Positions 146 through 15,063 of a stretch of 24,768 nt of DNA are shown in pieces. Source of the DNA: a virus; the IMG/VR virus record IMGVR_UViG_3300034066_000667, positions 1 through 24,768 of that record; one strand, given 5' to 3'. The notes under the pieces are model-generated. The model saw only the letters and a list, made by a program, of their open reading frames with translations, was not told the origin of the DNA and ran no database searches. The position numbers and the translations under genes were made by a program. Position 1 is the first letter of the stretch. The number at the start of each line of letters is the position of its first letter.

Positions 146-1561
146 TTATATTGCTCCTGTTATGGAGTTTGCTCCTAGTGAGCCACCGCTTCCGCGACTA
201 GCGCGAATAGTGCCTGACTTGCGCTTAAATGAAAGTTCTTCTTGCTCTTTACGGCGCTTACGCAGTTCAGATGCCATTCCTAGGAACTCTTCTGTTTGAA
301 GATCCTTTTGGATGGCTTCCTTGTCTGCCTTGACTCCGTAGATGTTCTCTAGTTTAGTCAGTGGCTCAAGAGTCTTTCCGATCTCTTCAAATCCAGTAGA
401 TGCAAGTTGAGCGATCTGTGCCTCTGTGTAACCCTTCTCTGTAAGAGTTGCAGCCAGAGCCTTCATGCCTTCGATCTGGCCAGGGGCTGTTGAGATACCA
501 GTAGCAGAGCGACGGATAGCCTCGGCTACAAATGCTCCTGTGTTTCTGTTGATCTCAAGTTGCTCCTTGCCGATCTTTGAATCAAGATAGAAGTCTTGCA
601 GACCTTCCTTGCTAGCAATATAGCCCAACTTGATAAGAGCGTCTGTCTTTGCTGGGTCTGCTTGAATAGCAGCCAAACGAGCAGTATTAGCACGTTCATC
701 TAGGTCAAGGACTGTGACGTTGTTCTTTACATAGTTCTTGAGTGAATCTGTGCTTAGGTACTTATCGCTGAAACCGTACTTTTGCTGGAGTGACTTGTAG
801 CCTTCGACAGCATTAAATAGTTCGCTTGCTTCTTTAGGGGTAGCAAGACCCTCGTTGAGGTATCCATACTCTGAGTAGAACGGTGAGGTTATCTTAGTTC
901 CATTCTTGAGTGTGTATTCTTTAGTATTGAGGAACAATGCAATGGCGTTGTCATACTCAATGTTTTCTTTAAGAAGTGAGTTAAGATATGATGTTGATGA
1001 ATCAAGTATTCTTGATGATAATCCCTGAGCCTTGAGTAGCGCCTTTAGAACATCTACGCTTGTAGATGGTGTGCCAGTTGCAGATGTTGTGGTTGTGCCA
1101 CCAGCACCACCAACAGCACCAGTAGAACCACCACCGCCCATTCCAGCGCCTGCTCCTGTGCTACCTGTATTCTGGTACAGTTTCCACTGTCCAGTATCAG
1201 TTCCACCGATCCATGTATAACGGAATCCTGCAGGTGCTACTGGCTGTACTGCCTTGTTAAATATAGGATTGCCTGCGGCTTCTTCAAGTGATAGCCCTGC
1301 TGCAATGGCACGTTCTTGCTGCATTCTCTGAGTTGTTGTAACAATTGGTGCTGGTTTCTGAGTTCCATCAGGGTTAAGACCCTGAGATACATAGAGATCT
1401 GTAAGTGCTTTTCCAAGAGTATCTACAAGATTATTAAGTTTAGGAACCATTGTGGCAGGGGTTTCAACCGTTGCAGGTGCTTTAGGTGTTTCTACTTTTG
1501 CTGGAGTAACAACTCCTTCTCCACCACCATCTACTAAAGCACGACCTGTTTTAATAGCCAT
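146..1561 (-). CDS. Unknown virion-type protein, 471 residues
   Basis: I do not recognise the family. An N-terminal part (about 1-130) is followed by a flexible Gly/Thr/Ser-rich linker at roughly 133-170 (runs such as GAGAGMGGGGSTGAVGG). Then comes a mostly helical body and a strongly charged tail (RKRRKEQEELSFKRKSG near 430-450) ending in Gly/Ser-rich sequence. There is no signal peptide or clear membrane segment. It is the seventh gene after the terminase in the leftward operon and starts three bases after the stop of the 436-residue gene. Position and the Gly-rich linker suggest a minor virion or internal protein, which is inference. In-frame codons after the stop encode a second short Gly-Pro tail before another TAA. 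Confidence 0.75.
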   Translation of the reverse strand: MAIKTGRALVDGGGEGVVTPAKVETPKAPATVETPATMVPKLNNLVDTLGKALTDLYVSQGLNPDGTQKPAPIVTTTQRMQQERAIAAGLSLEEAAGNPIFNKAVQPVAPAGFRYTWIGGTDTGQWKLYQNTGSTGAGAGMGGGGSTGAVGGAGGTTTTSATGTPSTSVDVLKALLKAQGLSSRILDSSTSYLNSLLKENIEYDNAIALFLNTKEYTLKNGTKITSPFYSEYGYLNEGLATPKEASELFNAVEGYKSLQQKYGFSDKYLSTDSLKNYVKNNVTVLDLDERANTARLAAIQADPAKTDALIKLGYIASKEGLQDFYLDSKIGKEQLEINRNTGAFVAEAIRRSATGISTAPGQIEGMKALAATLTEKGYTEAQIAQLASTGFEEIGKTLEPLTKLENIYGVKADKEAIQKDLQTEEFLGMASELRKRRKEQEELSFKRKSGTIRASRGSGGSLGANSITGAI

Positions 1562-1563: not shown

Positions 1564-2874
1564 TTAACCTAACGCATTCTTTAGTGATTGAGCCATATTG
1601 ACTGCCGTATTAATTGCTGTCGATGTAGATTCATAACGCTTATCGTTCTTGATAATGTTCTGCATCTCAAACTCGTTTGGCAGTCTGTACTCGCCGTTCT
1701 CATCTTTGAAGTTAAGAACTTGAATCGCAAGAGGATCTTTAATGCCAACGTTGGTTTCAAGACCAGCAGATAATGTTTGTAGCACTGGAGCAACATACTT
1801 GTTGGCTGTCTCACCTGGCTTGAGGGAGTTCTGGATAGCCATAAAGCGACTTCCAGACTTGGACTGAATCTCTGATATATACTGATTGTAAAGTTCGTTC
1901 TGCACATTCTCATCAGGGTTAGATAGAAGATTCTTGATGAGTGGAGAAACTGTGGCAAAGTCAGGAGCAGCATCATAGTTGCCCGTATGGTATGCCTTGA
2001 TTGTATCGTAGATGGTCTTTGCAGAACCACCGATATCATCTACATTCCACTGTGATTCTGGGAAGTTATTTACAAGGAAGTCAGCAAGGAACTCCTTCTG
2101 CTCTTCTGCTGTGAATCCTTCACCCTGTGAGGTAGATGTTCCTTTTGTAATAGTCTTATACTGCTTGATGCCCTCAGCATTGGTCTTAATCTTTGAGAAG
2201 ACCTTGTTTCCAAACTGATCAACCTTTTGCTTATTGGTCTTAGAATCCATAACTGGCTTGCTCTTAGTATCATAGATTGGAGCAAACTCTGTCTTACCAG
2301 AAGTAGTTGTAGGCTGGTTCTGCTGCTTGACCTGTGCATTCCATGAATCCTGGAACTTCTTATCTAGTTCTGGGGCTGGCCACTGACCAAATGCTGTAAA
2401 GTAGGCATTGTTGTAGTACTGGCGAGCATCGCCAAGATCCTTGAATTGAAGTGCTGTCTGGATCTGCTTAGTATACTTTGTGGTTGTATCTGGCTGCTTA
2501 GGGCCTTCTTTTGGCTTAACCGTAGCATTATATGCTTTTAGGAAGTCAAGGGGAAGCAGTTGGCTCGGAATAGCGGAAAGGATAAGTTTCTCAATAGCAG
2601 CAGACTCATCCATTCCAACTACTCCAACTCCCAAAGGAGTTGTTGACTTACTTAATCCAGATTTACGAAGCAAGTTTTGCATTTCAGCAAAATCTGCACC
2701 CATGGCCTTTTGGATATCCATAAGATATCCTGCTTTTCTTACTGGGTCAGTTGTTTGAGCAAATAGTACGAAAGGGTCTTTTGGATCGTTATAAATGCCA
2801 AGGATTCCTGCAGCCTGCATTTGAGTTTTAGGCGCATCAGGAATGAATTGAGATCCTACATATCTTCCGCTCAT
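1564..2874 (-). CDS. Unknown virion-type protein, 436 residues
   Basis: A soluble, largely helical protein with no recognised domain. Residues about 120-260 are rich in Lys, Gln and Thr (low complexity around QVKQQNQPTTTSGKTEF), followed by a helical C-terminal region. There are no cysteine motifs, signal peptide or transmembrane segment. Its ATG overlaps the stop of the 1943-residue gene as TAATG at 2872-2876, so the two are probably translationally coupled and made together. Placement between the giant protein and the 471-residue protein suggests that the three work together in the virion, for example as internal or DNA-ejection proteins. The function itself cannot be read from the sequence. 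Confidence 0.75.
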   Translation of the reverse strand: MSGRYVGSQFIPDAPKTQMQAAGILGIYNDPKDPFVLFAQTTDPVRKAGYLMDIQKAMGADFAEMQNLLRKSGLSKSTTPLGVGVVGMDESAAIEKLILSAIPSQLLPLDFLKAYNATVKPKEGPKQPDTTTKYTKQIQTALQFKDLGDARQYYNNAYFTAFGQWPAPELDKKFQDSWNAQVKQQNQPTTTSGKTEFAPIYDTKSKPVMDSKTNKQKVDQFGNKVFSKIKTNAEGIKQYKTITKGTSTSQGEGFTAEEQKEFLADFLVNNFPESQWNVDDIGGSAKTIYDTIKAYHTGNYDAAPDFATVSPLIKNLLSNPDENVQNELYNQYISEIQSKSGSRFMAIQNSLKPGETANKYVAPVLQTLSAGLETNVGIKDPLAIQVLNFKDENGEYRLPNEFEMQNIIKNDKRYESTSTAINTAVNMAQSLKNALG

Positions 2875-5800
2875 TACTTAGCCTCTCTTAATATACCAGC
2901 GAATACACCGTAGTACATACGGGAGAATTCAGGATTGTTAGACATTAATGTTTCTCCTAGGGCGACGAGTTCATCACGCATAAGTGTTGCAACTCCACCC
3001 TTAGATGATAGTTCTGCATAGTTTGAAACCTTTAGATCGTTAAGAACTTTTCTAAATTCCTCAAACTGCTTGTAAAATGTTACTGTTTCTCCGTAGACAG
3101 AAGAAGACTCGAATATCGGATCTTCAATAGCACGACCAACTGTTGCTATCTTTTCGTCTTGGATTCCAGTTACGATTGCATCTACTGGCTTAGCGCCACC
3201 AAACTGCTTATCGAGGATAGCGATCTGCTCGTTGTACCAGAAATCTGTGTAACGTCCAGCAATCTGCTGCTCAGCAAGTTGGCTCTTGAGCATGGAGTAA
3301 ACCATGCCCTCTGCCTCTTGTGCTATCTCTGATGTAGACATCTGACGACGAGCACCCATCTTCTTCTGCCAGTTGGTGTACTTAATCGCATACTCTCCGC
3401 CAGGGAAGAAGTAAGGAATGACGTCTCCAGATGGAGTGGCATACTTACTCACAGCATCTGGGTTGTTATTCAAGAATGTCCAAGCATCTGCAGTACCAGA
3501 GGTTCCTGGTGTGGTGTTGCTGATAGCAACTAGAAGGTTTTTGTGACCAAACCGCTCAGCAAACTTAGATGCTGCTGTTCCATTATCTCCAGGATAACGC
3601 TTCTTGAGTGTATCCCACTCTTTGTAAAGCATTGTCATGGTCATAAAGTTCTGCTTGTTATTAGGGTTCTTGATGCTTAGCAGAACCTCTTGGATAGGAG
3701 TTGCTGGCGAGATGCTCTGGAATATTGCACCAAAGATGTTTGCCCACTTAGCCATACCTTCTGCATCACTAAATAGTTGATTTCTTGCCTGATCGTTAGC
3801 AAATGGGTTATCCCCATAATCACCCGTGGAGGCTAAATACGAAGCAAAGTCTTTAACTCCACGCTGTGTAGACGCATCATCTGCAATAAAAGCGTTAACT
3901 ATCTTCTTTGCCCAGGCTGGGAAGATGATATCTTCTACGCCCTTAGGCTCACCAAATGGTGTAACAATATCTCTGAGTAGATCATCTACTGGACCAAACG
4001 CCTTGTCGCGTCCAGTTACTGTATAAGCAGCAACCATAAGAGGTCCTATGCCAGGGGATAACGGATTAACAGAACCAAATGCAAGGTTCAAAGACTGCAC
4101 TGGTGATGTTATCTGTAGAGCATCTTTTGCATTAATGTTCATACCAGCCATAGCACCAAGAACGCTACCAACAATAGGCATCTTAAACTTTAGATCTTCA
4201 GACATTTCATCCTTGTAAAGGAATCCCTGATTATCATCATAAGTTACGCCAGAAACATCGTAGATTACATTTGATCCCTCTTTTGTAAGAGAGTCAAATG
4301 CCTTAGCAAACTTAATCATAGGCACTGGGTTAGCGAACATAAGTTCTCCCCATTTGCCAATGGTGTTGTAGTGAGCCTGAGCAAACGGTGCTACCAGACG
4401 GGCTGCGTTAGCCCACTGCTTCTGCTTAGCGGCGTTATAGAACAAGTTTTCTACATACTTAGATGCTTGCTGCGCTGCGAGAGAATCAATTGTTCTTAGC
4501 GTTGCTCCACCCTTGTGAACGTAAGAAGGGTTCTTTTGACGCTGCTTGAGTGTGCTGTTGATAGAACGCAATGGTGCTGGAACTCTACCAATAATCTTCT
4601 TTCCACCTTTAGATGTAGGTGCAAAAGCCTTGTTGGCGTTGTTACGCAACTTAATCAAGTCCTCAGTGCTGAGCATATCAGCGTATGAGGCTACGAAGTC
4701 CCAGTAACTAGCGTCAAACTCAGGTCCGAAGTTGACCTTGCTTTCAACTCTTGCTGCTAGATCAAAGAACCAGTCTGTAAATTGCTTAGCCACCTTGGTG
4801 GTTCCGTCAAAGACTACCTTCTCATTGTATACACGTACACGTGAGCCAGCCATTTGCTCTGGCTTAAAGATTGCAGCAACCTGCTTTTCAAAGTTCTTTT
4901 CTGCAGAAATAACCTGCTCTGTTGTTAGACCCTTTTGAGCATATGGTGGTTTGACAGTAACTAACTTGCCGTTAACTGGAACCTTTACTTCTCCATCACG
5001 TAACATAGAAAGAACTAGATCTCTTTGTGCTCCCTGACCGGCAAGAAGGTCAACCTGTCCAATAACTGTGTTAGCCTGTTTAGCGTCAAATAGATACGTA
5101 AGGAGATTATCCTTGTTGATGTTTGACTTTACAACACCAGGACCAGTTTCCTTGAAAGGATTGATAAGAAGTAGTTCATTCATTCCTTCATTATCATTGA
5201 AGATTGCTGATAGGAACTCTCGCAACTTATTGCCTGGCTCATCAAATGTATCAATTAGATTATCAACATACTGAACTTGTGCTTCTGGTGTTCCTGCTTG
5301 CATTACGCGGATTACATCTGGAATAAACTTATCTGATGAGAAGTTGTTCATTGTCCAAGCAAGGCCCTGTAGGTAATCTTCGCTTGTAGAATCTACAACA
5401 TCATAGGTTCTAAAAATACTTGTTGGCTTTCTTCCAGGAGCACCATAGTCTGCAGTAGAGTCCTTGCCACGACGAGTCAAAGCCTGACGAGCAATAATAG
5501 ATTCAGAGAACTGAACCTCTGCATCTGTAGACTTGAAGAACTCACCCATAGCATTTACGCCAAGTTTGCTCTTACCTGCTAGTGCCTTCTGCGCCCAGTT
5601 ACCTTCTGGGTTAGCAATCATCATAGAAATGAAGCCAATAGGGTTGTTAAATAAACTGTTATGGCCAGATAGGAACTGGCGCATTTGCATTTCTCCTACG
5701 TTACGCATGATGTAGGCAAAACGACCTACCAACTGCGCTGTACGCCAGAGATCTCCTGCTTCTTCAAGAAGAACTTTTGTTGATCGTGCCTTACCATACA

Positions 5801-8705
5801 ACGGAACGTTAGTCTTAAAGTCTATAAGAGACTTAGTTACTGCACGTGAGTCTGGAAGATTAAGTACATCCTTAACCAACTGGCTTTCAAGCATTCCCTT
5901 TGTTAGGCGAATTTCTTTTCCACCTGCTGTAATAGTTCCGCCACCACCGTTGGCAAGCGCCTGCTCAAGGGTGTAGTTTGATACAAGAACGTCTTCTTTA
6001 CCAGAGATCTTGATGCTTTCTTTAAGTTTAGCAATACCGTCTTTATCAGCACCGATTCCTGATGCAACTTCATCTAGCAACTTACCGATACCATTATGGA
6101 CGGCAGCAGCGCGTTCAGCGTTAGTTTCAGCAGCAAAGATTGCTCTCTGTGTATCAGCAATAACTCTGTCTCTAGTTGTCTTGCTAATCATTCCACCAAA
6201 GCGAGATGATACAAGGATAGAACTCATCCAGTCTTCAACACCAGTATTTAGTGCTGTGAGATCATTAAGATTAAGCGCTGTAGATCGGATATAGAAACGA
6301 CCAAATGCTCTGTTAATGTTCTCTGACATACGGATAGCGTTGAGGTTTACACCTGGGATCAAACGGGCAACTGGGTTTGCGGCAATCTTAGCACCAGTTC
6401 CAACAGCATTTTTGACTGCAATTAGATCCGCACCACTATCTATTTGGTTTAACAAGATTCTATAAACGTCGTCTACTGTAGCAGCCCCAGCAAGTTCTTT
6501 AATAACTCTGTCATCTAACTTGCGTCTAAATAGGTTGCGTAGTTTAACAACATCTTTTTCGCCAGCAACAATCTCAGCAACTGCCTTAAATTGACGGCCA
6601 AGCATGAACTTGATTCCCTTTTCCATGTTTGGAGTATCAAGTACGTTGCCCATAAAGTTATCTGTAAGCCCAGCATTTGCTAGGATAGACTCTTTGTAGA
6701 TTGATTTCTCTGCAAGTTCTGCTTCTAGTTTAAGCAAACCCTTGAGACCCTTTGACTTAGGATCTGAAATTAACTCTCTAAGAATATCTGGATCTCCATT
6801 TGCCTTCTGGCGTAGGAGACTAAACCATCTTTCTTTATCTTCAAGATCTAGTTGTTTATTAACTAGGTCATCAAATTCATTCTGTCGGGTGATAAGTTCA
6901 TCCTGAGGCTTTTTAATTGACTGTAAAAGTCTAAGAACATTAGGTCCTAGGTTAGTAGGATCTGCAATCTCTGCTGCTGCAATACCAATTTCAGCACGTG
7001 TGGCTGCAATTTTTGCTGTATTAGTAATTGCAACTCCACCAGTTCCGCCATAGATAGAGCGAATGTTGGTGAAGCCATCAACTTTCCAGATGTCTTCCAC
7101 AAGTTCTGATACCTTAGACATAACTGCTGGATTCTTTAGTGCAGAAACTTCACCAAGAAGAGTGCCAAGGCTCTTTCCTGCTGCGAGTTCATCTCCAACG
7201 ACAAACAAAGATCCTGTAAATCCATCAAGTGCTGCTGCTTCGTCACGAAGTCTAGTTGCTAGTTCGTTATAGACTCTAAACTCTGGATCTGCTACATTTT
7301 TGCCTAGTTTATCTAAACGATCTGCTAATTTAGCGCGGCGGAGACCTTCTTTTGTGCGTGTTGCCTCATCAGCCTTTGTAAAGTCATCAGCAAGATCAAG
7401 TAAGTTGAATTCATCTGCTGTATTTGCAGTGACAGCATACTCGTCTAGATAATGTGCTCCTGCGCTAACCTTGCCATACTGTGGGACTTCATCAAGAAGG
7501 ATGTACCCATCAAAGAATCCGCCAGTGTTTTTCATATCAGTAGACAATAGTGACATTGCATCAGATAGTTCACCAGTCTGAGTTTTAGGGTTAGTTATAA
7601 ACCACTCAGAAATGCTTTTATCAGAAAGTGTCTGCTTTGAAATAGCGTCTGCTGGTTCTGATGTCCATCGAGCCGCGTTGAGACTTTCAAAATTTAATAG
7701 TTTACGAGCAGTTCTGATTTGTTTATCGACAATCTGCTTTTCGAGAGCAATAATCTGATCTTCTTTTTTCTTAACGTCTTTTGCAAGACGCTTAAAAGGT
7801 GAAGAGATTTTCTTTGTAATCTTATCTTCTAGAATACTTCCTTCTTTTTTAAGAAGTTCTACTGCTTCTTTTTCAAGTTGGCTAATTCCAACCTTGTTAT
7901 ACTCTTTGATCTCATTTGCTAACGCTGTTGCCTTCTTGCCCTGCGTAAGAATCTTGCCTGCAGCGCCAGGACCAAACCACATAGATGGATCTAAGCCTAC
8001 GTTAAGTGTCGCATCTACAATTCCAGATAAAACCTTATATGCATTGTCTTGTGGGTTGAGTCCAATGCCGTTAAAAATACTGCGACCAATGGTGTAGGAT
8101 TCTCCATTAATCTGACCGTACTTACCCATGGCTTTGATCTGTGCTTTTCCAGCAGCACTTTTAGGGCTGACAAAGAATCCAGATCCTTGATCTGAAAAGT
8201 TTCTTGCTAAAGCACCAAAAGTGGTTGCTTCGGAAAAAGCACCTGTAAATATTTCTTTTTTCGAAATGTCTTCTCCGCGGATAGCCGCTAGTGTATCTCG
8301 TCCTGTAACTGTTGCAATGTCATAAGGCAAACGAAGTCCTGCAAAAAGAGTACGAGTTAGACCCTTAAATGGATCGTAAACGCCTTCTTTTAGTCCAGCC
8401 TGAATAGTGCCAAGGAATCCACGATCAGGTTCTACATTCTTTTTGATTTTATCTACGTTAAATGCGTCTGCTTTGAGTGCAGCAATACCGTCAATGGTTG
8501 TAATTTTATTCAGATTAGGAGTATCTGCAGTCAATCCCTGACGAACCATAGATACAACTAAGTCATTACTCATCCCAGGATATTTTTGGGTGATAGCATT
8601 AAAGTTAGATAGTGCATCTGGAGACAATGAATTCATTGAATACTGCATCATTGTCTTGTATGAGTTTTTCCTAGCCTCTAGGATGGCTTTTAGATTATCA
8701 GCCAT
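2874..8705 (-). CDS. Giant virion-type protein, 1943 residues
   Basis: One uninterrupted frame takes up almost a quarter of the window. The N-terminal region (about 1-240) has Gly/Phe-rich stretches such as GAFSEATTFGALARNF. Residues about 285-345 are rich in Lys, Glu and Leu and look like a coiled coil. The central part is helical. Around 1490-1560 there are hydrophobic Gly/Ala/Met stretches (PIVGSVLGAMAGMN, GPLMVAAYTV) that could be membrane-active. I see no convincing catalytic motif: no polymerase, protease or transglycosylase signature. Size and operon position resemble internal or ejection proteins of podoviruses, or large multi-role phage proteins, but a tape-measure role is not excluded. 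Its ATG overlaps the previous stop (TAATG at 8703-8707). Confidence 0.85.
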   Translation of the reverse strand: MADNLKAILEARKNSYKTMMQYSMNSLSPDALSNFNAITQKYPGMSNDLVVSMVRQGLTADTPNLNKITTIDGIAALKADAFNVDKIKKNVEPDRGFLGTIQAGLKEGVYDPFKGLTRTLFAGLRLPYDIATVTGRDTLAAIRGEDISKKEIFTGAFSEATTFGALARNFSDQGSGFFVSPKSAAGKAQIKAMGKYGQINGESYTIGRSIFNGIGLNPQDNAYKVLSGIVDATLNVGLDPSMWFGPGAAGKILTQGKKATALANEIKEYNKVGISQLEKEAVELLKKEGSILEDKITKKISSPFKRLAKDVKKKEDQIIALEKQIVDKQIRTARKLLNFESLNAARWTSEPADAISKQTLSDKSISEWFITNPKTQTGELSDAMSLLSTDMKNTGGFFDGYILLDEVPQYGKVSAGAHYLDEYAVTANTADEFNLLDLADDFTKADEATRTKEGLRRAKLADRLDKLGKNVADPEFRVYNELATRLRDEAAALDGFTGSLFVVGDELAAGKSLGTLLGEVSALKNPAVMSKVSELVEDIWKVDGFTNIRSIYGGTGGVAITNTAKIAATRAEIGIAAAEIADPTNLGPNVLRLLQSIKKPQDELITRQNEFDDLVNKQLDLEDKERWFSLLRQKANGDPDILRELISDPKSKGLKGLLKLEAELAEKSIYKESILANAGLTDNFMGNVLDTPNMEKGIKFMLGRQFKAVAEIVAGEKDVVKLRNLFRRKLDDRVIKELAGAATVDDVYRILLNQIDSGADLIAVKNAVGTGAKIAANPVARLIPGVNLNAIRMSENINRAFGRFYIRSTALNLNDLTALNTGVEDWMSSILVSSRFGGMISKTTRDRVIADTQRAIFAAETNAERAAAVHNGIGKLLDEVASGIGADKDGIAKLKESIKISGKEDVLVSNYTLEQALANGGGGTITAGGKEIRLTKGMLESQLVKDVLNLPDSRAVTKSLIDFKTNVPLYGKARSTKVLLEEAGDLWRTAQLVGRFAYIMRNVGEMQMRQFLSGHNSLFNNPIGFISMMIANPEGNWAQKALAGKSKLGVNAMGEFFKSTDAEVQFSESIIARQALTRRGKDSTADYGAPGRKPTSIFRTYDVVDSTSEDYLQGLAWTMNNFSSDKFIPDVIRVMQAGTPEAQVQYVDNLIDTFDEPGNKLREFLSAIFNDNEGMNELLLINPFKETGPGVVKSNINKDNLLTYLFDAKQANTVIGQVDLLAGQGAQRDLVLSMLRDGEVKVPVNGKLVTVKPPYAQKGLTTEQVISAEKNFEKQVAAIFKPEQMAGSRVRVYNEKVVFDGTTKVAKQFTDWFFDLAARVESKVNFGPEFDASYWDFVASYADMLSTEDLIKLRNNANKAFAPTSKGGKKIIGRVPAPLRSINSTLKQRQKNPSYVHKGGATLRTIDSLAAQQASKYVENLFYNAAKQKQWANAARLVAPFAQAHYNTIGKWGELMFANPVPMIKFAKAFDSLTKEGSNVIYDVSGVTYDDNQGFLYKDEMSEDLKFKMPIVGSVLGAMAGMNINAKDALQITSPVQSLNLAFGSVNPLSPGIGPLMVAAYTVTGRDKAFGPVDDLLRDIVTPFGEPKGVEDIIFPAWAKKIVNAFIADDASTQRGVKDFASYLASTGDYGDNPFANDQARNQLFSDAEGMAKWANIFGAIFQSISPATPIQEVLLSIKNPNNKQNFMTMTMLYKEWDTLKKRYPGDNGTAASKFAERFGHKNLLVAISNTTPGTSGTADAWTFLNNNPDAVSKYATPSGDVIPYFFPGGEYAIKYTNWQKKMGARRQMSTSEIAQEAEGMVYSMLKSQLAEQQIAGRYTDFWYNEQIAILDKQFGGAKPVDAIVTGIQDEKIATVGRAIEDPIFESSSVYGETVTFYKQFEEFRKVLNDLKVSNYAELSSKGGVATLMRDELVALGETLMSNNPEFSRMYYGVFAGILREAK

Positions 8706-9133
8706 TAAGATTCCAGTTCGTTATATGCTTCTACCATCATCATTAGTTGACGAGAATCTGGGTTAGCCGCATACATTGCACGGACAAACATAGAATCAGG
8801 ATTAAAAGAATCAACTGGTGTCTGCTGTGCTGTATCGTCAGGACCAGGACCACCCTTTGCACCACTTGAAAGAGGAACTCCCTGTGTTCCTGGAGCAAAT
8901 GCATTTACTGTAGCAATAGGAGTGCCTGCTGTTACAACATTTCCTGCTGATACTGCACTTGCTGTTGGTCCTGTAGATTCGGCAGATGCAAGAGACTTCA
9001 TATCTTTGCGCTCTCCGTAGGTTCCGCCAGCAGCATTTTCTATTCTTGCGTTGCGCTGAATCTTCTGGACCATGCCGCGGTCAACACGCTTTGAGTCTCT
9101 TCCGACTCCTGATACAGGTGCAATATTCGACAT
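8705..9133 (-). CDS. Small structural or scaffold-like protein, 142 residues
   Basis: Family not recognised. The N-terminus is basic (GRDSKRVDRGMVQKIQRNAR), the middle is a disordered Ala/Gly/Thr/Pro region, and a short C-terminal helix (about 110-142, ending MVEAYNELES) could be an interaction segment. The composition resembles scaffold or head-completion accessory proteins, but that is a guess from composition and from its place directly after portal and an 83-residue gene. A ribosome binding site (GAGGA) lies before the ATG, inside the end of the upstream gene, and its own stop overlaps the start of the giant gene. Confidence 0.65.
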   Translation of the reverse strand: MSNIAPVSGVGRDSKRVDRGMVQKIQRNARIENAAGGTYGERKDMKSLASAESTGPTASAVSAGNVVTAGTPIATVNAFAPGTQGVPLSSGAKGGPGPDDTAQQTPVDSFNPDSMFVRAMYAANPDSRQLMMMVEAYNELES

Positions 9134-9135
9134 TT

Positions 9136-9387
9136 TTAGTCCTCATCTTCGTCATCAATATACTCGAGTGGATCAATCTTGTTTGGAATGCCTTCTGGCA
9201 TCATCCAATCAGGCCATGAACTGCGATCCATCATAACTGTCATGCACACGTCAGAAGGGAATCCTGCGACGCGAAGTGCTTTGTAATACTCATGCATTGC
9301 AATGCAATACAGTTCTAATTTTGAATAAGACTCATCGCGTACAGTTCTAACTGCTGCCTTTTTAACTGGCTTCTTACGCGCTGCCAT
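9136..9387 (-). CDS. Small unknown protein next to portal, 83 residues
   Basis: The protein begins with a Lys/Arg-rich segment (AARKKPVKKAAVRTVR), continues with a helical core containing YCIAMHEYYKALRVAGF, and ends in an acidic tail (YIDDEDED). A basic head and acidic tail are common in phage accessory head proteins, but no family is recognised. It starts one base after the portal stop with an excellent ribosome binding site, GGAGGA at 9398-9393, so it is surely translated. Its function is unknown; the operon position argues for head assembly. Confidence 0.7.
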   Translation of the reverse strand: MAARKKPVKKAAVRTVRDESYSKLELYCIAMHEYYKALRVAGFPSDVCMTVMMDRSSWPDWMMPEGIPNKIDPLEYIDDEDED

Positions 9388-9388
9388 C

Positions 9389-11131
9389 TTATCCTCCTAG
9401 TCCTGCTAACATTGTTGCTAAATCTGCTGGGGGTGCTGCTTGTTGAGGGACTCCACCAGAAGGTTGTCCAGGAGCGGCTGGGGATTGGGGAGCCTGCTCA
9501 ACTGGGCCTTGTGTGCCTGGTGGAGCCATCTCTGGCTGTGCTGGTTGTTCAGGCTGTTGAGGCGGCGTGAACACTGCCAACGCAGCATCCTGTATGTTTT
9601 CTCCCCGAGTGATGCGATCAATCACATCAGCAATATTCTTAATAAGCGGTGAAGGATCTGCTCCTTGCGCTGCCATTGCAGGGATTGCTTGTGCAGTTGC
9701 TGTAATGGCTTGCGTGAGATTATCTTGCATTTTTTCTACAGTAATGCGTGTTTCTTCCATGCTTGTATTAACATTCCATGGTAGTTCTCGACGAATAAAG
9801 TCTTTGGATACAAGGTCTGCACCTAGTGCTTGTAGTGAGAAGATCAATGCACGTGAAGGGTCTAATCCAGCCATCAAGCCATAACGAACTTCAATAGAAG
9901 TGTCGCCTTTTATGTCCTTGCTTGGCATGTACTTTAACTCGTACGGCGTACCCTGTGCTGTTCCTCTAACGCTCTTTTCCTTGTCGAAAAGAACTTCATC
10001 CATCTCAAACGCTATTTGAAGTACATCCTCGAACACCTCAGCAAGGATGGTTTGACCAGCCTTGATCTGAGAGTCGAAAGCACCAAGTAGCGCCTGGACA
10101 CCTTGACCAGTAATAATACTTGCGTCAATGTTTCCAGTTCTGCCCTCAGGATATCGAGCACCAAGTCGTAATTCTGATTGGAGTGCTGATTGCTCCTGGA
10201 AAGCAGCAGCGGGAATGTCCAAACGAACACGCCCGACACCTTGTGGTTGAGTTGTACGGATAACTGCATCAGGACCCATAGGTAGGTCTAATACATCGCT
10301 AGGTACAACAAGTGGCGCTTGAATTGACTTTTCAGCCGCTTCCATTGCCAAGTTAGCGAAACGTGCGCGAGCCATTTGTACATAGATCACGTCATCAAAT
10401 TGTCCGCGTGGTTCATCATCAATGCCAGGACGACGTGCAATACGCACAGTCATCTTGCCAAGAGGATTCTTTACGGTACTAAGAATTAAATTATTGTTGT
10501 TTGGAAGGAAAAGAACTGTCTGATCTTTATCCATGTACTTGATAAGTTCAATATCGTTGCCTGTGTTCTCACCAAAGCGACCAAGAATGTTGGTTGCAAA
10601 CTCTGGGAACTCATGTGCAAGTTCATTAGATGTTTTCTTGTAACGCTTAGCGTATGCTACGCAACGTCCAAAACGATCAAACTCTGGGTAAGATCCCATT
10701 GGATCTTCAACACGGATGAAAGGAATATCACCTTCAAAATCTGGCTCTACGTGGATTGGCAAGAATCCGTATGAGAAGTACCAATCTGCGCCCCAGTACA
10801 TCTGTGACTGGAGACGTGAGTTTGCAACATAGTTGTTGGCAATCATGCTTCGCTTATCAGCAAACTTACGAGCCTTCTCATCTGTAACCTTGACTGCGCC
10901 ACAGTTAAATGATGGAAGTGGGGCTAGAACTTCTGCAAGATCACGGGCTGCAACGTCGATAAAGTTAGCAACCATTGAGTATGGAAGTCCCTCAGGGAAC
11001 AAATCTGGAAAAATGCTAGCAATCTGACCTTTGCGAACAGCCTGAATCTGGGCCATACGAAAGTCACGCTCAGAATGCAAGCGCTTGAGATTCTCAACAC
11101 GCTTAGCGATTCTTTCAATGTCTAATGCCAT
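9389..11131 (-). CDS. Portal protein
   Basis: The protein forms the dodecameric ring at the capsid vertex through which DNA is packaged and ejected. The call rests on overall resemblance to actinophage portals: a helical N-terminus, the stretch YWGADWYFSYGFLPIHVEPD near 110-130, the segment VEDPMGSYPEFDRFGRCVAY, the late helical region with QVLLGAFDSQIKAG-like spacing, and the length of 580 residues. It also lies immediately after the terminase, the usual phage order. The last 75 residues are a Pro/Gln-rich tail (PPQQPEQPAQPEMAPPG and similar) that looks disordered. The ATG is three bases after the terminase stop. No adjacent protease or capsid gene is in view. Confidence 0.85.
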   Translation of the reverse strand: MALDIERIAKRVENLKRLHSERDFRMAQIQAVRKGQIASIFPDLFPEGLPYSMVANFIDVAARDLAEVLAPLPSFNCGAVKVTDEKARKFADKRSMIANNYVANSRLQSQMYWGADWYFSYGFLPIHVEPDFEGDIPFIRVEDPMGSYPEFDRFGRCVAYAKRYKKTSNELAHEFPEFATNILGRFGENTGNDIELIKYMDKDQTVLFLPNNNNLILSTVKNPLGKMTVRIARRPGIDDEPRGQFDDVIYVQMARARFANLAMEAAEKSIQAPLVVPSDVLDLPMGPDAVIRTTQPQGVGRVRLDIPAAAFQEQSALQSELRLGARYPEGRTGNIDASIITGQGVQALLGAFDSQIKAGQTILAEVFEDVLQIAFEMDEVLFDKEKSVRGTAQGTPYELKYMPSKDIKGDTSIEVRYGLMAGLDPSRALIFSLQALGADLVSKDFIRRELPWNVNTSMEETRITVEKMQDNLTQAITATAQAIPAMAAQGADPSPLIKNIADVIDRITRGENIQDAALAVFTPPQQPEQPAQPEMAPPGTQGPVEQAPQSPAAPGQPSGGVPQQAAPPADLATMLAGLGG

Positions 11132-11133
11132 CG

Positions 11134-13008
11134 TTATTCCTGTTCCTCACCAAACTCATAGTCATTGACATTGAGTACATAGCGTTCTTGTTGTTGTTTA
11201 CGAGTTGCCCATTTATTGGTTATATGGCTCTGATTAGTTCTACCGATTGAGATAACTTCTTTGGCGCGTAGTTCACAGAACCAGAGCGCCATCACACAGT
11301 CGGTCTTGCCTTTAGTATTAGGCTCCCAGGTTATTAATTGCTGGATCAGAGCCTTTATGCCCTCTGAACCTTCCACTGCTGGAAGTTCTAAGAGGTTATC
11401 GTTATTAAATGCTGTGCCACGCATAGTCCCAAAAAGACCTGACATGGCTGCTACACCGAATTGTGTATCCCATTTATTCTTACCAGTGAACTGACTCGAG
11501 AAGCGAACTCCTGCAGAGGCTAGGAACTGGCGTAGATCATCATCCAAAGCGTATGCTTTCTGATGCGCGTTGGTTTCAATTCTTAATTCTTGCGGTCTGT
11601 ACTTCTCAACCCAGTCCTGAATCAACTTCTGGATCTTCTGAGGAGTAGGATCGAACATATTTTCGACGTCAAGGATATACCTTTTGCGACTGTAACGATC
11701 TACTGTCATAACCACTGCTGCTGTATTACCAGTCATAGCAGGGTCTAGACCCATGATGGTGTACCAAGATCCCTTTTCAGTGGGATGTCCAGCGCTACCA
11801 GCCTTTAGGGGGCCACGCTTTCGCATCCTATTGATCGAACCTTGTACACAGACAGGGGCAAATATTGAGTCTTCTTGTACGTCCTGTTGCTGGTATACCA
11901 ACGCCCACGCACTTGGCGAGACTTCACTACGTCTACGGAATAATGCTCCCCCGTCCCATTTAGGATAGAGGCCATCTTCATCTGGTAAAATATCTTCATC
12001 TGAGCCCTCCCAAGGGATATGTGCTTTAGGCCATAGAGTAACCCAGTCTTTTGGGTTATCTGCGAACTCAAGTACTGCTGGCATTGAAAGGTAAGTGAAC
12101 GGTGACTTGCCACCAGTCCAGTGCTCAGGGTTTCTAATCTCTCGATAGAGGTCGTTAGCGGCGATACGTGTGCCTACGATCAACAACTTACCGTTATCAC
12201 CCAGACGAGTGACTACATCTCGCTGGAGCCAGAGGAGTTGCTTCTCCCACTCATGTGCGTTTGAAGTCGTAACAACGTCGTCCAGGATGATGAGGTTCGA
12301 ACGGGCTCCAGTAATCTGGCCACCAATACCGAGCGCTTGCACCGTCGGATCTTTTTCGGTAGAATCACGAGAAAGGTAAATGCGATCAGCCTTCCAAGTA
12401 TCCGCATCCTCTTTCCAGCCTCCTGCAGACCCATAGACTGCCTGTAACTTAGACCAACGCTCGTGGCTTAGTCGCTGCTTGATGGAGTAAAGATACTCCT
12501 TAGCGCGTTCCTGAGTCTTGGAAACGATGGTGATCTTAATGTTGGGATCCATGGCGATTCGGTACACACAGTAGTTGACCGTGATGACCGTCGACTTAGC
12601 ATGCTCGGGTGGGACGTTGATAAGCAGACGCTTCTTAGATGCAGGGTCATAGACCATCGACGAGTGAATGTAGGAAGGTTCCCGTCCTTCGAGCACGTCA
12701 ATCCAAGACCTGTGATGCTGGAAAATCGGCGAGTCAAGAAACTCACGGCTGAACTCCTCAAAGCCAATCTTGAACTTGGCATCCCCTGAAACTATACTTA
12801 AAGTCTTTTCGCCCTCTGATCGGGCCTTCTCAAGTTCTCTCATAAAGGCTGGGTCTTTGCGCCAGTCCTTCATGACATCTGGCTTACGTTCAGCCCTTGC
12901 TAATGCATCTGTAATATCTAAACCTTGGCGGACAAAATCTAAAACTTTTGCCTTTGCCTCTCTGAGAGCGACTACATTGTGGTGCTCTTTACCGCCCTTA
13001 GCAGCCAT
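11134..13008 (-). CDS. terL: Terminase large subunit with N-terminal helix-turn-helix
   Basis: The motor and nuclease that cuts concatemeric DNA and pumps it into the capsid. Visible motifs: Walker A at about 133-140 (PPEHAKST), Walker B at 239-244 (LIILDD), and an RNase H-like nuclease domain with the likely metal ligands D422 (GLDPAM), E478 (RIETN) and D570 (KTDCVMALWF). At 624 residues it is longer than most because residues about 20-65 form a helix-turn-helix-like segment (DITDALARAERKPDVMKDW), reminiscent of small terminase subunits. No separate small subunit gene is visible. The start has a strong ribosome binding site, GGAGGGG at 13020-13014. It is the first gene of the leftward virion operon. 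Confidence 0.95.
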   Translation of the reverse strand: MAAKGGKEHHNVVALREAKAKVLDFVRQGLDITDALARAERKPDVMKDWRKDPAFMRELEKARSEGEKTLSIVSGDAKFKIGFEEFSREFLDSPIFQHHRSWIDVLEGREPSYIHSSMVYDPASKKRLLINVPPEHAKSTVITVNYCVYRIAMDPNIKITIVSKTQERAKEYLYSIKQRLSHERWSKLQAVYGSAGGWKEDADTWKADRIYLSRDSTEKDPTVQALGIGGQITGARSNLIILDDVVTTSNAHEWEKQLLWLQRDVVTRLGDNGKLLIVGTRIAANDLYREIRNPEHWTGGKSPFTYLSMPAVLEFADNPKDWVTLWPKAHIPWEGSDEDILPDEDGLYPKWDGGALFRRRSEVSPSAWALVYQQQDVQEDSIFAPVCVQGSINRMRKRGPLKAGSAGHPTEKGSWYTIMGLDPAMTGNTAAVVMTVDRYSRKRYILDVENMFDPTPQKIQKLIQDWVEKYRPQELRIETNAHQKAYALDDDLRQFLASAGVRFSSQFTGKNKWDTQFGVAAMSGLFGTMRGTAFNNDNLLELPAVEGSEGIKALIQQLITWEPNTKGKTDCVMALWFCELRAKEVISIGRTNQSHITNKWATRKQQQERYVLNVNDYEFGEEQE

Positions 13009-13055
13009 TATAACCCCTCCATTAAACCCCTTGTATAAAATCCCCTTTATCGCTC

Positions 13056-13140
13056 GGCTCGCTCAGGCGAGCCTCGCTAACCCCTCGGGTTCGTGGCTGG
13101 CAATAAGCCAGCCTACACTATCGTTTCGGCTGTCTCAGCC
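13056..13140. other. Cluster of three stem-loops upstream of terminase
   Basis: Three inverted repeats lie within 85 bases: GGCTCGC/GCGAGCC with a 4-base loop (13056-13062, 13067-13073), GGCTGGC/GCCAGCC with a 5-base loop (13095-13101, 13107-13113), and GGCTG/CAGCC with a 3-base loop (13128-13132, 13136-13140). None has a T-run on either strand, so they are not ordinary terminators. They could be a structured leader of the terminase transcript, a packaging or cos-type site, or part of an origin. Confidence 0.6.
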
Positions 13141-13201
13141 AACCACTCACATCAAGATAGACTCACTCTGTAGGAGTCGTTCGTCTATATATACTAACCC
13201 G

Positions 13202-13229
13202 TTCAAAACGGAAATCCGAACGGTATAAT
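13202..13229 (+). promoter_or_regulatory. Candidate promoter with overlapping inverted repeat
   Basis: TTCAAA (13202-13207) and a perfect TATAAT (13224-13229) are separated by 16 bases. The inverted repeat CCGTTC/GAACGG (13199-13204 and 13218-13223) spans the whole -35 and spacer, as an operator would. The 10-base core CGGAAATCCG at its centre shares GGAAATCC with the palindrome family of the rightward block. The -35 match is only four of six, so this is a candidate only. Confidence 0.4.
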
Positions 13230-13235
13230 CTAGCA

Positions 13236-13380
13236 AATGTGATGTACTTCACTAACTTATATGTATAAAACGGACATTTCCCCCGTAAATACTGGAAAAA
13301 TATTGTAACGCGATAGTGTATTATACGACCAGCGGGAGTTATAAGCACTGGGGTCGCCCCAAGCGACTCGATGCTTTTTT
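13236..13380 (+). ncRNA. Candidate short transcript of about 145 bases
   Basis: The stretch from the predicted start of the TATAAT promoter to the end of the T-run of the 13345-13380 terminator contains no convincing gene. It holds only an eight-codon frame from ATG at 13242. A promoter-like signal and a rightward terminator enclosing a non-coding stretch, with a leftward operon behind them, suggest a small regulatory RNA or a leader peptide transcript. No family is recognised. The main evidence is the terminator, which has no other obvious transcript to end. Confidence 0.3.
13345..13380 (+). terminator. Rho-independent terminator
   Basis: GGGTCGC (13351-13357) pairs with GCGACTC (13363-13369, one G-U pair) across the loop CCCAA. 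After a small internal loop, GCA (345-347) pairs with TGC (372-374), directly followed by TTTTTT at 13375-13380. It points rightwards only. No gene precedes it on this strand. Confidence 0.7.
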
Positions 13381-13540
13381 CTTTCCGAGCCTTTAGACAA
13401 ATATCTTTTTGCTTGTAGCGTCAGGGCTATGCCCTGCCTCTGGCAAGTGAGGGTTTTAGTAACGCTCCGCGATTTAAGTACCGCCGAGGGTCTACCGCGA
13501 GCCCGTTTACGGGCGAGCGCGCCGAAATTTTACGCCTGAG

Positions 13541-13552
13541 AGTTTGTGTCGG
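13541..13552 (+). repeat. RGTTTGTGTYGG repeat, outlying left copy
   Basis: AGTTTGTGTCGG is identical to the copy at 14471-14482. It lies 59 bases before the first palindrome copy and marks the left edge of the repeat-bearing block. Confidence 0.6.
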
Positions 13553-13610
13553 GAGACTATCTGCTCAGGGGGCTGGCTGGCTGGCTGAGCGTGTTTTGAG
13601 CGTGGGATCT

Positions 13611-13626
13611 GTTTGGATTTCCAAAC
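13611..13626. repeat. GTTTGG-N4-CCAAAC palindrome, copy 1
   Basis: The sequence is GTTTGGATTTCCAAAC. It ends 20 bases upstream of the -35 box of promoter P1, a position suited to an activator or to an upstream operator. Confidence 0.85.
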
Positions 13627-13646
13627 GCTTTTGGGGTCTTGGGTAT

Positions 13647-13675
13647 TTGACTCTAGTTCTGATCTATGCAATAAT
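13647..13675 (+). promoter_or_regulatory. Promoter P1, strong sigma-70 type
   Basis: TTGACT (13647-13652), a 17-base spacer, then AATAAT (13670-13675): five of six matches in each hexamer. Transcription should begin near 13682. The leader carries the inverted repeat CAGGTC/GACCTG (13684-13689, 13699-13704) before the ribosome binding site GAAAGG at 13710-13715. It serves the 209-residue gene. Confidence 0.75.
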
Positions 13676-13723
13676 TCTCTCATCAGGTCGCAACGGGTGA
13701 CCTGCTCTTGAAAGGTAAGAATC

Positions 13724-14353
13724 ATGACAGAATCAAAGGCTCCACAAGGTAAGGCAGTTCCAGCGCTCGTTAAGGCTTACGCTCAACTCGTCACCACTGG
13801 CGATCAAGGCGTGCGCGAGTGGTTCCGTAAGGCTCAGAAAGTTTCCGTCCGCGATTTCGAGGCGACAATTCTTGAGGCTAAGCAGTTCGGCGAAGTTCGC
13901 GGAATCACCAAGAACTCTGCAAAGTTCGTGAAAGTTATCGTGGCCTCATTTGATCTTGAAGGCGCGGATAAGGTCTCGGTAATCGAGATTTCTAAGGTTG
14001 CTGAGATGGCTCAGCGTGCGGTCAAGGTGGACGGCGCTATCGCCATGATTGGTCTCTCAAAGGATTTTGACGAGTTCAAGGCTAATGCGGAATTGGCTCG
14101 TGACGCTAAGCCTAAGCGTAATAACACTGGCGCAGGTCGTAAGTCTGGCGAGGTCGAGGTTACTCTGAACGCTGACGGCCTAATCGCTCAAGCGCTCGAA
14201 GGTCTGCGCGATTTGGTGGACGTCACTGTTACCGACTTCGACTCCGCGTCTGATCTGATTAAACTCGTGAACCACCTCGTCACGACTTCACTCCATAACC
14301 AAGCGCTGAACGAGTCAGTCGAGCGCCATCCAGCGAAAGGCGCGACTGCCTAA
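13724..14353 (+). CDS. Unknown single-gene-unit protein, 209 residues
   Basis: I do not recognise this protein. Residues 1-125 form a mixed helical domain containing WFRKAQKVSVRDFEATILEA. A basic, Gly-rich linker at about 129-141 (KPKRNNTGAGRK) leads to a second small domain (143-195). There are no cysteines, signal peptide or membrane segments. The gene sits alone between strong promoter P1 and a strong terminator, so it is probably abundantly expressed, and it looks GC-richer than the flanking operons. Two palindrome copies flank the transcription unit. A nucleic-acid-binding or early take-over role is possible, but is inference from context and the basic linker. The start is fixed by GAAAGG eight bases upstream. 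Confidence 0.85.
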   Translation: MTESKAPQGKAVPALVKAYAQLVTTGDQGVREWFRKAQKVSVRDFEATILEAKQFGEVRGITKNSAKFVKVIVASFDLEGADKVSVIEISKVAEMAQRAVKVDGAIAMIGLSKDFDEFKANAELARDAKPKRNNTGAGRKSGEVEVTLNADGLIAQALEGLRDLVDVTVTDFDSASDLIKLVNHLVTTSLHNQALNESVERHPAKGATA

Positions 14354-14369
14354 GCACTGAAAGATCAAG

Positions 14370-14401
14370 CCCGTCACCCCTTCGGGGGTGGCGGGTTTTT
14401 T
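14370..14401 (+). terminator. Rho-independent terminator after the 209-residue gene
   Basis: An 11-base-pair stem with one T-G pair, CCCGTCACCCC (14370-14380) with GGGGTGGCGGG (14385-14395), closes the tetraloop TTCG and is followed by TTTTTT (14396-14401). It is one of the clearest terminators in the window and ends the P1 transcript. Confidence 0.93.
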
Positions 14402-14434
14402 CTATGCTCCGATTTTTTCTGTGCTCCGAAATCC

Positions 14435-14450
14435 GTTTGGATTTCCAAAC
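14435..14450. repeat. GTTTGG-N4-CCAAAC palindrome, copy 2
   Basis: GTTTGGATTTCCAAAC lies 34 bases after the terminator T-run. It overlaps a second palindrome (GAAATCC/GGATTTC) that extends to the left. Confidence 0.85.
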
Positions 14451-14470
14451 GGGCGCGGACGGGGCGCGAA

Positions 14471-14627
14471 AGTTTGTGTCGGCCAGCAATCGCGGAAGTT
14501 TGTGTTGGTTTGTGTCGGGGGTGGTGGTTCAGTCATTGTCGTCTATCAGAATCTACCCTAGCCCTAGCGGTCTTGGTTTGTGTCGGCGCACCCATTCCAG
14601 CCCCAGCCGTCCTTTGGTTTGTTTCGG
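14471..14627 (+). repeat. Cluster of five RGTTTGTGTYGG direct repeats
   Basis: The copies are at 14471-14482 (AGTTTGTGTCGG), 14497-14508 (AGTTTGTGTTGG), 14507-14518 (GGTTTGTGTCGG, overlapping by two bases), 14575-14586 (GGTTTGTGTCGG) and 14616-14627 (GGTTTGTTTCGG, one mismatch). The last two are extended to 19-base near-repeats sharing TGG before and CGCACC after. All are in the same orientation. Iteron-like behaviour is suspected only from arrangement. Confidence 0.7.
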
Positions 14628-14654
14628 CGCACCAGATCCAGTGGTCATGCTCAT

Positions 14655-14683
14655 TTGACTTAGGGTAGCCCATGCCGTAAAAT
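14655..14683 (+). promoter_or_regulatory. Promoter P2, strong sigma-70 type
   Basis: TTGACT (14655-14660), a 17-base spacer, then TAAAAT (14678-14683). It has the same -35 hexamer and spacing as P1. Transcription should begin near 14690, which places palindrome copy 3 at about +28 to +43, inside the leader. It drives the chain of genes starting at 14753. Confidence 0.75.
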
Positions 14684-14716
14684 AGGTTATGCACGGGCAA
14701 AGTCTGCCCTCGCACT

Positions 14717-14732
14717 GTTTGGATTTCCAAAC
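14717..14732. repeat. GTTTGG-N4-CCAAAC palindrome, copy 3
   Basis: GTTTGGATTTCCAAAC lies in the P2 leader, 20 bases before the ATG at 14753, and is followed by the ribosome binding sequence GAAAGG. As RNA it could form a 6-base-pair hairpin with a 4-base loop just before the ribosome binding site. Confidence 0.87.
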
Positions 14733-14752
14733 GCTAGATGAAAGGTAGTTAA

Positions 14753-14890
14753 ATGGATAAGTACGAAGTGTTCGAGAAACTAGCAGATCAGTACAAGAGA
14801 GGACTTCTCACCAATGATGAGTTCTGGGCTGAGGTCAGAGAGCGCGATCTTATGGACAAGATCGGCATTAACGAAGGGATGGCAAGATAA
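14753..14890 (+). CDS. Small unknown protein, 45 residues
   Basis: The sequence begins MDKYEVFEKLADQYKRGLLT and is predicted helical, charged and soluble, with no motif recognised. The ATG is preceded by GAAAGG, eight to ten bases upstream. It is the first gene after promoter P2, and its TAA abuts the ATG of the next gene. The phasing of helix-forming residues (FEKLADQYKRGLLTNDEFW) resembles short domains that bind other proteins, but no function is claimed. Confidence 0.7.
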   Translation: MDKYEVFEKLADQYKRGLLTNDEFWAEVRERDLMDKIGINEGMAR

Positions 14891-15061: not shown

Positions 15062-15063
15062 CC

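Follow-up and report, generated by a model that had tools for sequence, protein, structure and literature searches.

A cysteine-free giant protein and its neighbours as a probable internal ejection complex of short-tailed actinophages

What could a protein of 1943 residues do for a phage that encodes it shortly after its terminase and portal genes, when family searches recognize nothing in it? The question is raised by positions 1 to 24,768 of the virus record IMGVR_UViG_3300034066_000667, a 24.8-kb stretch of 24,768 nucleotides hereafter called the window. We put at about three in four the probability that this giant, together with the products of the next two genes (p436 and p471) and probably p142 encoded just ahead, makes up an internal ejection complex in the head of a short-tailed phage of freshwater actinobacteria. 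Five lines converge on this reading: the position of the genes, their exchange as one unit, wall-enzyme partners, a cargo slot and the absence of cysteine. The complex is best read as analogous to gp14-16 of T7 or gp50-52 of N4, without detectable sequence relation to either; we infer its virion location, its ejection, channel formation and the order of events. An earlier note on this DNA had guessed at an ejection complex, and the guess gains indirect support from the three-gene block, the exchange of the cassette, the hydrolases of Streptomyces phages, the lack of cysteine and the enzyme inserts of some relatives. The genes concerned are the following.

2874..8705, minus strand: the giant, 1943 amino acids (aa) without cysteine, an uninterrupted open reading frame (ORF) of 1943 codons; proposed main internal or ejected virion protein.
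1564..2874, minus strand: p436, the second cassette gene; a match to gp11 of Streptomyces phage Dennebes covers the C-terminal ~115 aa.
146..1561, minus strand: p471, the third cassette gene; gp13 of Streptomyces phage Immanuel3 and PHROG 8424 match the C-terminal half.
8705..9133, minus strand: p142, cysteine-free, with a TAATG overlap with the giant; proposed small cassette member.
9136..9387, minus strand: p83, two cysteines, function unknown, between portal and p142.
9389..11131, minus strand: portal protein (PHROG 104, E 5e-26).
11134..13008, minus strand: terminase large subunit, TerL (PHROG 38, E 1.5e-70), 58% identical to that of Planktophila phage E7.
18421..18759, plus strand: WhiB-family regulator (PF02467, E 1.6e-17).

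Read along the minus strand, the order is TerL, portal, p83, p142, giant, p436 and p471, with one-base overlaps (TAATG) at the p142/giant and giant/p436 junctions and with p471 starting two bases after p436. The description in the earlier note holds: the 1943-residue gene at 2874-8705, listed there without a strand, is an uninterrupted minus-strand ORF with homologues of near-constant length, it is the largest gene of the window, and it lies near head genes and two large proteins of unknown role, TerL and portal being upstream and p436 and p471 downstream. The second and third genes match PHROGs of unknown function, 6654 for p436 (E 2e-5) and 8424 for p471 (E 7e-16), and Planktophila phage F5 has, in its own third cassette gene, a match to residues 19-129 of p471; p142 has a sole PHROG match at E 0.063. 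The WhiB gene at 18421-18759 identifies the window as an actinophage, with a host among the Actinomycetota.

A portal search of phage records returned 31 at E 1e-5, namely 29 Streptomyces phages and the Planktophila phages E7 and F5. The window portal is 44-55% identical to the Streptomyces and Planktophila phage portals (53% for E7). E7 (LanE43-AprE7) and F5 (AprF5) were isolated on Candidatus Planktophila strain LanE-43, according to the available part of their description (PMC10202952). The Streptomyces relatives are Beephvirinae, among those whose taxonomy was examined, and one of them, Abafar, is presented in the accessible text as a podovirus with a very short tail by electron microscopy (PMC11536984). 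In E7, F5, Immanuel3 and Dennebes alike, the portal gene is followed by small genes, a giant (1764, 1711, 1648 and 1635 aa, respectively) and then genes of unknown or tentative annotation. The Planktophila phages thus have the gene order of the window and a giant with two followers, whereas a tblastn search of 50,697 phage records with the window giant had no hit at E 1e-5, not even to the E7 and F5 giants. A scan of genome contigs gave no relative. IMG/VR supplied 31 window-type loci from a first scan and the best 80 of 110 from a profile scan overlapping the first, as well as 9 E7-type and 25 F5-type loci. The coding of the giant is not due to chance, because 62 full-length window-type proteins (the window and 61 other loci) all keep 1923-1961 aa; in two alignments, comprising 19 and 34 of these proteins, identity to the window giant is 41-89%.

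The giant is accompanied by its followers at every locus with sufficient DNA. Adjacency was assessed for 82 distinct full-length giants, 61 window-type (the window itself excluded), 9 E7-type and 12 F5-type. A gene of the p436 group comes directly after the giant, starting -3 to +7 bases from its end, at 75/75 loci with enough DNA, and a gene of the p471 group comes next at 68/68; at the remaining 7 and 7 loci the sequence ends before or inside the gene concerned, as judged from the bases left. Each gene was placed in a group by its BLAST matches to representatives, among them a member from every type; a single third gene, of the E7 type, had matches in both the p436 and the p471 group. BLAST also links the types to one another. 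For the second gene, E7_442 matches Immanuel3 gp12 (3e-13), F5_364 matches gp11 (2.6e-5) and Dennebes gp11 matches p436 (3.5e-7). For the third, E7_530 matches Immanuel3 gp13 (2e-29) and F5_482 (1.5e-10), while p471 is matched by Immanuel3 gp13 (1.2e-8) and F5_482 (2.6e-13). The length of p471-type proteins varies strongly, from 390 to 737 aa (L064 737, L025 691, L121 658), against 1923-1961 aa for window-type giants, and those of three freshwater loci (L015, L025, L010) have no Pfam match above cutoff.

The two Planktophila phages show this block being exchanged. E7 and F5 are 96.3-97.7% identical in DNA over their four longest shared blocks, with ~3 kb by TerL matching in pieces of 79-98%, yet no DNA match at E 1e-10 connects E7 8373-16921 with F5 22069-30335 (F5 as locus L036, reverse complement). 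The unmatched stretch is the giant with its two followers: the DNA alignment ends within the p147/p160 gene and restarts where the third cassette gene finishes. The proteins of this stretch show weak matches between the two phages: p147 and p160 are 50% identical over 115 aa and E7_530 and F5_482 are 26% identical, and BLAST finds no match between the two giants at E 0.1. Because the two phages are ~96-98% alike on either side and yet their versions share no DNA similarity, the giant and its followers move as one cassette. The same phages were reported, in the part of the source at hand, to differ by an 8-kb island of hypothetical proteins, three in E7 and four in F5 (PMC10202952); by coordinates, size, position and gene count, our reading is that this island would be the giant cassette. 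Giants diverge faster than portal. At locus L009, for instance, identity with the window reaches 94% for the portal and 95% for p83, against 73% for the giant, 72% for p436 and 65% for p142.

Are the giants of the different types homologous? BLAST barely detects them across types, and profiles were therefore compared by hhalign, A7 denoting the profile of Streptomyces giants and A2 that of the window giant, with reversed decoys and 21 proteins as controls. A7 aligned with the window type at E 0.0012 over 353 columns, with the E7 type at E 0.00074 over 43 columns and with the F5 type at E 0.0049 over 253 columns, each alignment including one core motif; the reversed decoys gave 0.053 or worse, and the best of the 21 control proteins reached 0.031 against A7. 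Window and Streptomyces giants align at E 4.8e-4 in a single-sequence comparison (probability 32%) and at the above E 0.0012 by profile (19%), and window and E7 types align at E 0.0048 over 313 C-terminal columns. Direct comparison of window with F5 profiles (0.32) and of E7 with F5 profiles (0.63) gave nothing above decoys. Two stretches of the giant are of note.

7953..8027, minus strand: giant residues 227-251, motif SGIVDATLNVGLDPSMWFGPGAAGK, with a by-eye likeness to SGSIDLTVTFGLDPLILGGKAKRS in E7 and TGATDFAVSWYMDPLVLGGKAAG in Immanuel3.
3951..4424, minus strand: giant residues 1428-1585, conserved core (PFAQAHYNTIGKWGELMFANP ... SLNLAFG..NP..PG.GP ... TPFG), aligning with Streptomyces gp9.

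The N-terminal motif is seemingly common to the window, E7 and Immanuel3; BLAST matches the E7-Immanuel3 pair alone (E 0.001). Since hhalign probabilities are low (7-32%), the proposed homology leans on E values together with position and partners, and taken by itself the case that the window giant is homologous to the Beephvirinae-type giant is weak. With its partners, the window cassette belongs with the unnamed gp9-gp13 set of Beephvirinae (Immanuel3, Manuel and Flowerpower types). Both sets lie after the portal as a giant plus followers, with p436- and p471-type homologues found by BLAST, a giant core found by hhalign and cysteine-free giants (6/6 in the Streptomyces phages). The Beephvirinae set differs in its shorter giants (1635-1648 aa), an extra gene, gp10, and two p436 paralogues carrying NlpC/P60 and SLT domains; in Immanuel3 and Dennebes, moreover, a tRNA cluster separates the capsid genes. 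The annotations of gp9-gp13, as far as the records at hand go, read hypothetical protein, peptidase, glycosylase and minor tail protein, none of them stating an ejection role.

What lies beyond the cassette can be read from G001, a relative of 41.9 kb. Directly after the cassette it encodes a scaffold-like protein (PHROG 648, E 5.5e-7) and a major capsid protein (PHROG 1357, E 6e-59), so that the unusual virion plan suggested in the earlier note is not borne out. Its further late genes encode a collagen-like fibre and an SU10-adaptor-like protein (a sub-threshold Pfam match). None of the 10 late proteins tested in G001 was recognizable as a tape measure, a tail tube or a baseplate protein, the fibre and weak minor-tail matches being the only tail-related signals.

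Searches with the giant itself confirm that it carries no visible enzyme motif: there is nothing in PHROGs at E<=1, one sub-threshold DUF at 0.12 in Pfam, and a best E of 0.52 against PDB sequences. AlphaFold2, run on two segments with a 62-sequence alignment, gave mostly helical models with mean pLDDT of 57.2 (residues 930-1943) and 64.6 (residues 1-1000). Residues ~1422-1613 are among the most conserved and yet were modelled with very low confidence; they may fold solely in the assembly, or the alignment may be too shallow. Foldseek searches of the PDB with these low-confidence models of both halves gave no match at E<=0.001. VIA-align against the PDB returned unrelated helical proteins at Z 5.8 (rmsd 9.1, 111 aligned) and 9.2 (rmsd 15.2, 142 aligned), which we take as common helical arrangements; no phage ejection protein was among the matches listed, which excludes nothing. 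In BFVD, the C-terminal half had five matches at E<=0.001, three of them uncharacterized proteins of uncultured Caudovirales phages and two nameless. The structure prediction by segments proposed in the earlier note has brought out no clear tape-measure or polymerase fold, but its models are of low confidence.

These results bear on two rival functions. A tape measure protein of a long-tailed phage would resemble it in length, helix content and lack of cysteine (gpH of lambda has none in 853 aa), and weak BFVD matches to annotated tape measures exist at E 0.04 and worse. Against it stand the very short tail of Abafar (PMC11536984, in the accessible text), the position of the giant ahead of scaffold and capsid, the G001 late proteins just described and the lack of a PDB fold match at the above threshold, and we regard a tape measure as highly improbable. 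A virion RNA polymerase of the N4 type, or another enzyme diverged past recognition, seems to us just as improbable. Its size and the arrangement of a giant plus two would fit N4 gp50-gp52, and some related giants do carry enzyme inserts, as detailed below. Nevertheless, no polymerase domain was recognized in the giant by Pfam or PHROG family matching, N4 gp50 reaches E 0.11 over 29 columns against the giant profile, the N4 vRNAP chains appear in Foldseek only at E 3 and TM 0.08, and inspection alone of the conserved columns revealed no catalytic signature.

Across its 1943 residues the giant lacks cysteine entirely, where ~12 would be expected at the rate of TerL, portal and p83 (P about 5e-6), and p142, p436 and p471 of the window are likewise devoid of it. 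All window-type giants (62/62) and all those of other types (26/26, among them five with F5-kind inserts and one with the GNAT kind) are cysteine-free, as are their followers (75/75 second genes, 68/68 third genes), and the absence is therefore an evolved property. In gp9-gp13 of Immanuel3 and Dennebes, the sole cysteine belongs to a DCSG motif within the gp11 NlpC/P60 domain, and in 6/6 phages the gp11-type protein has no cysteine other than this one; we take it to be the catalytic one. Known ejection proteins behave similarly. As reference we used 24 of them, from T7, P22, SP6, Sf6, phiKMV, P-SSP7 and K1E together with N4 gp50-52, the first seven phages being drawn from the 14 in Table 1 of PMC8954989 and gp14 of P-SSP7 being chosen by size. 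Cysteine is missing from 21/24; the 18,699 aa contain three cysteines in all, spread singly over gp14-like proteins, and the 3500 residues of N4 gp50 contain none. To see whether a lack of cysteine simply characterizes virion proteins at large, we compared 62 further late proteins from these eight phages (hand-chosen, >=150 aa, clipped genes excluded), which hold 202 cysteines in 28,010 aa (0.72%), with 13 cysteine-free members, namely 5 scaffolds, 2 needles and 6 others, and for that reason the absence is a strong but non-exclusive mark. We infer that cysteine is likely absent because the proteins thread through a narrow channel into an oxidizing envelope, where disulfides would jam them.

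The same property speaks to whether the giant enters the virion at all. As its function is deduced from position and composition, it could be a cytoplasmic assembly factor or host-interaction protein that happens to be encoded among late genes. Joint conservation with two partners, fusions to wall hydrolases in relatives and lack of cysteine suit proteins that leave the reducing cytoplasm, and we hold a non-virion role to be very unlikely.

Several observations weigh against an ejection complex. Outside the reference set, gp14-17 of epsilon15 have 1, 2, 1 and 1 cysteines (5 in 2,574 aa), counted apart because the gene numbers and sizes of the record disagree with Table 1 of PMC8954989, and T7 gp13, annotated as an internal virion protein and kept out of the 24 because it is absent from that table, has 3 in 138 aa. 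The mark cannot separate tape measures from ejection proteins, since lambda gpH, like gpV and gpZ, lacks cysteine. Cysteine is also lacking in the scaffold and capsid proteins of both G001 and Immanuel3 and in three head or neck proteins of phi29; the late genes of Immanuel3 are generally cysteine-poor (1 in 641, 1 in 477, 0 in the capsid protein), so that the contrast with the cassette is smaller there. Profile A2 reached a best E of 0.023 over 43 columns against 28 reference products, the 24 ejection proteins plus epsilon15 gp14-17. A Kyte-Doolittle scan of the giant found no strong hydrophobic segment (best 19-residue mean 1.13), and the part of the review that was available lists putative C-terminal transmembrane helices in all its gp16-like proteins (PMC8954989). 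None of the p436-type proteins from the window, from E7 and F5 or from 10 more freshwater loci showed a hydrolase domain. Finally, the links between types are uneven: the F5-type giants are tied to the others through the Streptomyces profile alone, and E7_442 and F5_364 compared directly match weakly (E 0.015).

Wall hydrolases are nonetheless attached to this gene group in soil relatives, and they open the way to another interpretation. The two p436 homologues of Immanuel3 carry N-terminal NlpC/P60 (E 3.6e-30) and SLT (E 2.5e-5) domains. Enzymes of this kind could instead sit on an external tail tip or knob, with p436-type proteins as wall-cutting tail enzymes like gp13 of phi29 and the giant as an outer tail component. 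The hydrolase domains on Streptomyces gp11/gp12 would fit, some records name gp11/gp12 'minor tail protein', and phi29, the model Gram-positive podovirus, is described in the consulted parts of two reviews as having a tail knob equipped with the wall enzyme gp13 (PMC9863714) and as lacking ejection proteins (PMC8954989). However, cysteines number 3 in gp9 and 7 in gp13, the knob proteins of phi29, whereas the cassette has none save one in NlpC/P60; the giant lies between portal and scaffold, away from fibre and tail genes; and its models are mostly helical, with no fibre-like beta structure, at low confidence. We consider a tail-tip location unlikely.

An internal, ejected giant would also offer a setting for the enzymes inserted into some of its relatives. 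The F5-type giants of 25 loci share a slot near residue 820. There, 14 have no insert (L126 by length alone) and five (L130, L135, L137, L138, L139) have an ADP-ribosyltransferase-like insert, in one case clipped by the contig end. This insert lies, e.g., at 7461-8132 in L130, and PF03496 is matched at E 4.5e-15 and 1.6e-16 in the giants of L130 and L135, the two scanned. One further locus shows just the beginning of such an insert, and one does not span the slot. The other four (L131, L132, L133, L134, two of them identical) have a ParB-like insert at the same place. That label is weak, being based on a sub-threshold PF02195 match (E 0.018) in L134, none in L131, and motif appearance; a PDB sequence search gave no match of the ParB kind. 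A GNAT-like insert (PF00583, E 1.7e-4) occurs at one of the 9 E7-type loci, L113, the other 8 being judged by length, and no insert above 30 aa occurs in the 62 full-length window-type giants. A delivered effector would be expected to look like this, an exchangeable enzyme domain within a late protein of virion type. The nearest concept is that of polyvalent proteins, which the available text describes as large, predicted to be packaged and injected, and endowed with ADP-ribosyltransferase (ART) and ParB-like domains (PMC5512222). The likeness lies in the ART- and ParB-like inserts of some F5-type relatives; the differences are that no effector domain was recognized in the window giant with PHROGs and Pfam, and that the relatives looked at have at most one insert in a fixed slot rather than a string of domains.

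How, then, does the cassette compare with established ejection systems? N4 and DEV (Schitoviridae) have a three-gene ejection operon (gp50-gp52) of one giant and two smaller proteins, reported without detectable similarity to T7 in the part of the source available (PMC12633501). The window likewise has a giant followed by two smaller genes, and all three N4 proteins are cysteine-free, but no sequence similarity was found, there is no polymerase in the window giant, and the host envelope is another. With gp14-gp15-gp16 of T7 and gp7-gp20-gp16 of P22 it shares clustered late genes and large members without cysteine. One component bears a wall hydrolase in the T7 and SP6 types, as in Immanuel3, and no such domain was found on p436 of the window or on the freshwater homologues scanned. 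T7 and P22 sets, like the giants, diverge faster than portal, according to the accessible sections of a review (PMC8954989). The cassette differs from the T7 and P22 sets in that no sequence similarity was found, in their Gram-negative hosts and in having its largest gene first. Because sequence homology was tested and did not appear, and a crude scan showed no transmembrane helix, the cassette cannot be filed with the T7 or N4 families.

In the mechanism that we propose, the cassette proteins would be loaded into the procapsid beside the portal, would exit via portal and tail ahead of the DNA, and would build or open a path across peptidoglycan and membrane. In the Streptomyces relatives the second protein carries wall hydrolases, and in some freshwater relatives the giant might also deliver an ADP-ribosyltransferase-, ParB- or acetyltransferase-like domain from its fixed slot, the window giant being without insert.

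Elsewhere in the window, an Amidoligase_2-like gene (15660-17111; PF12224 E 7.7e-6, 21 cysteines) and a class-II glutamine-amidotransferase-like gene (17147-17992; PF13230 E 9.3e-7, 14 cysteines), both cysteine-rich, adjoin on the plus strand, perhaps as a peptide or surface modification pair spanning 15660-17992. The primase (22393-23230, minus strand) is split into two overlapping ORFs, 22850-23230 and 22393-23196, and Immanuel3 is likewise annotated with two overlapping primase genes.

The sections of the review consulted describe ejection proteins as common in Gram-negative podoviruses, with a list that also names Mycobacteria, and as absent from phi29-like phages (PMC8954989). Because that review places them mainly in Gram-negative podoviruses and none in phi29-like ones, an actinophage ejectosome would extend the known kind, and the open-access literature, in the portion searched, holds no statement of a cysteine rule or of such an ejectosome. 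We tentatively extend the argument, at somewhat less than an even chance, to Gram-positive Actinomycetota podoviruses at large. They would have an ejectosome of their own, unrelated in sequence to those of T7, P22 and N4 and exchanged as a single cassette, with wall enzymes on the second protein in soil phages and, in the giant, a docking slot from which various effector enzymes would reach the cell before the DNA, and the exclusion of cysteine, catalytic ones excepted, would be a general mark of proteins that pass portal and tail unfolded. The crossing of a thick wall by short-tailed phages of Gram-positive bacteria is described from phi29-like phages in the available parts of two reviews (PMC8954989, PMC9863714). 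The cassette would add a testable ejection machine, present both in laboratory phages of Streptomyces and in those infecting Nanopelagicales, which abound in fresh water, and a likely role for the 'genomic island' that differs between two isolated Planktophila phages. The cysteine rule, if true, would be a simple sequence test for ejected proteins among the unknown giants of phages.

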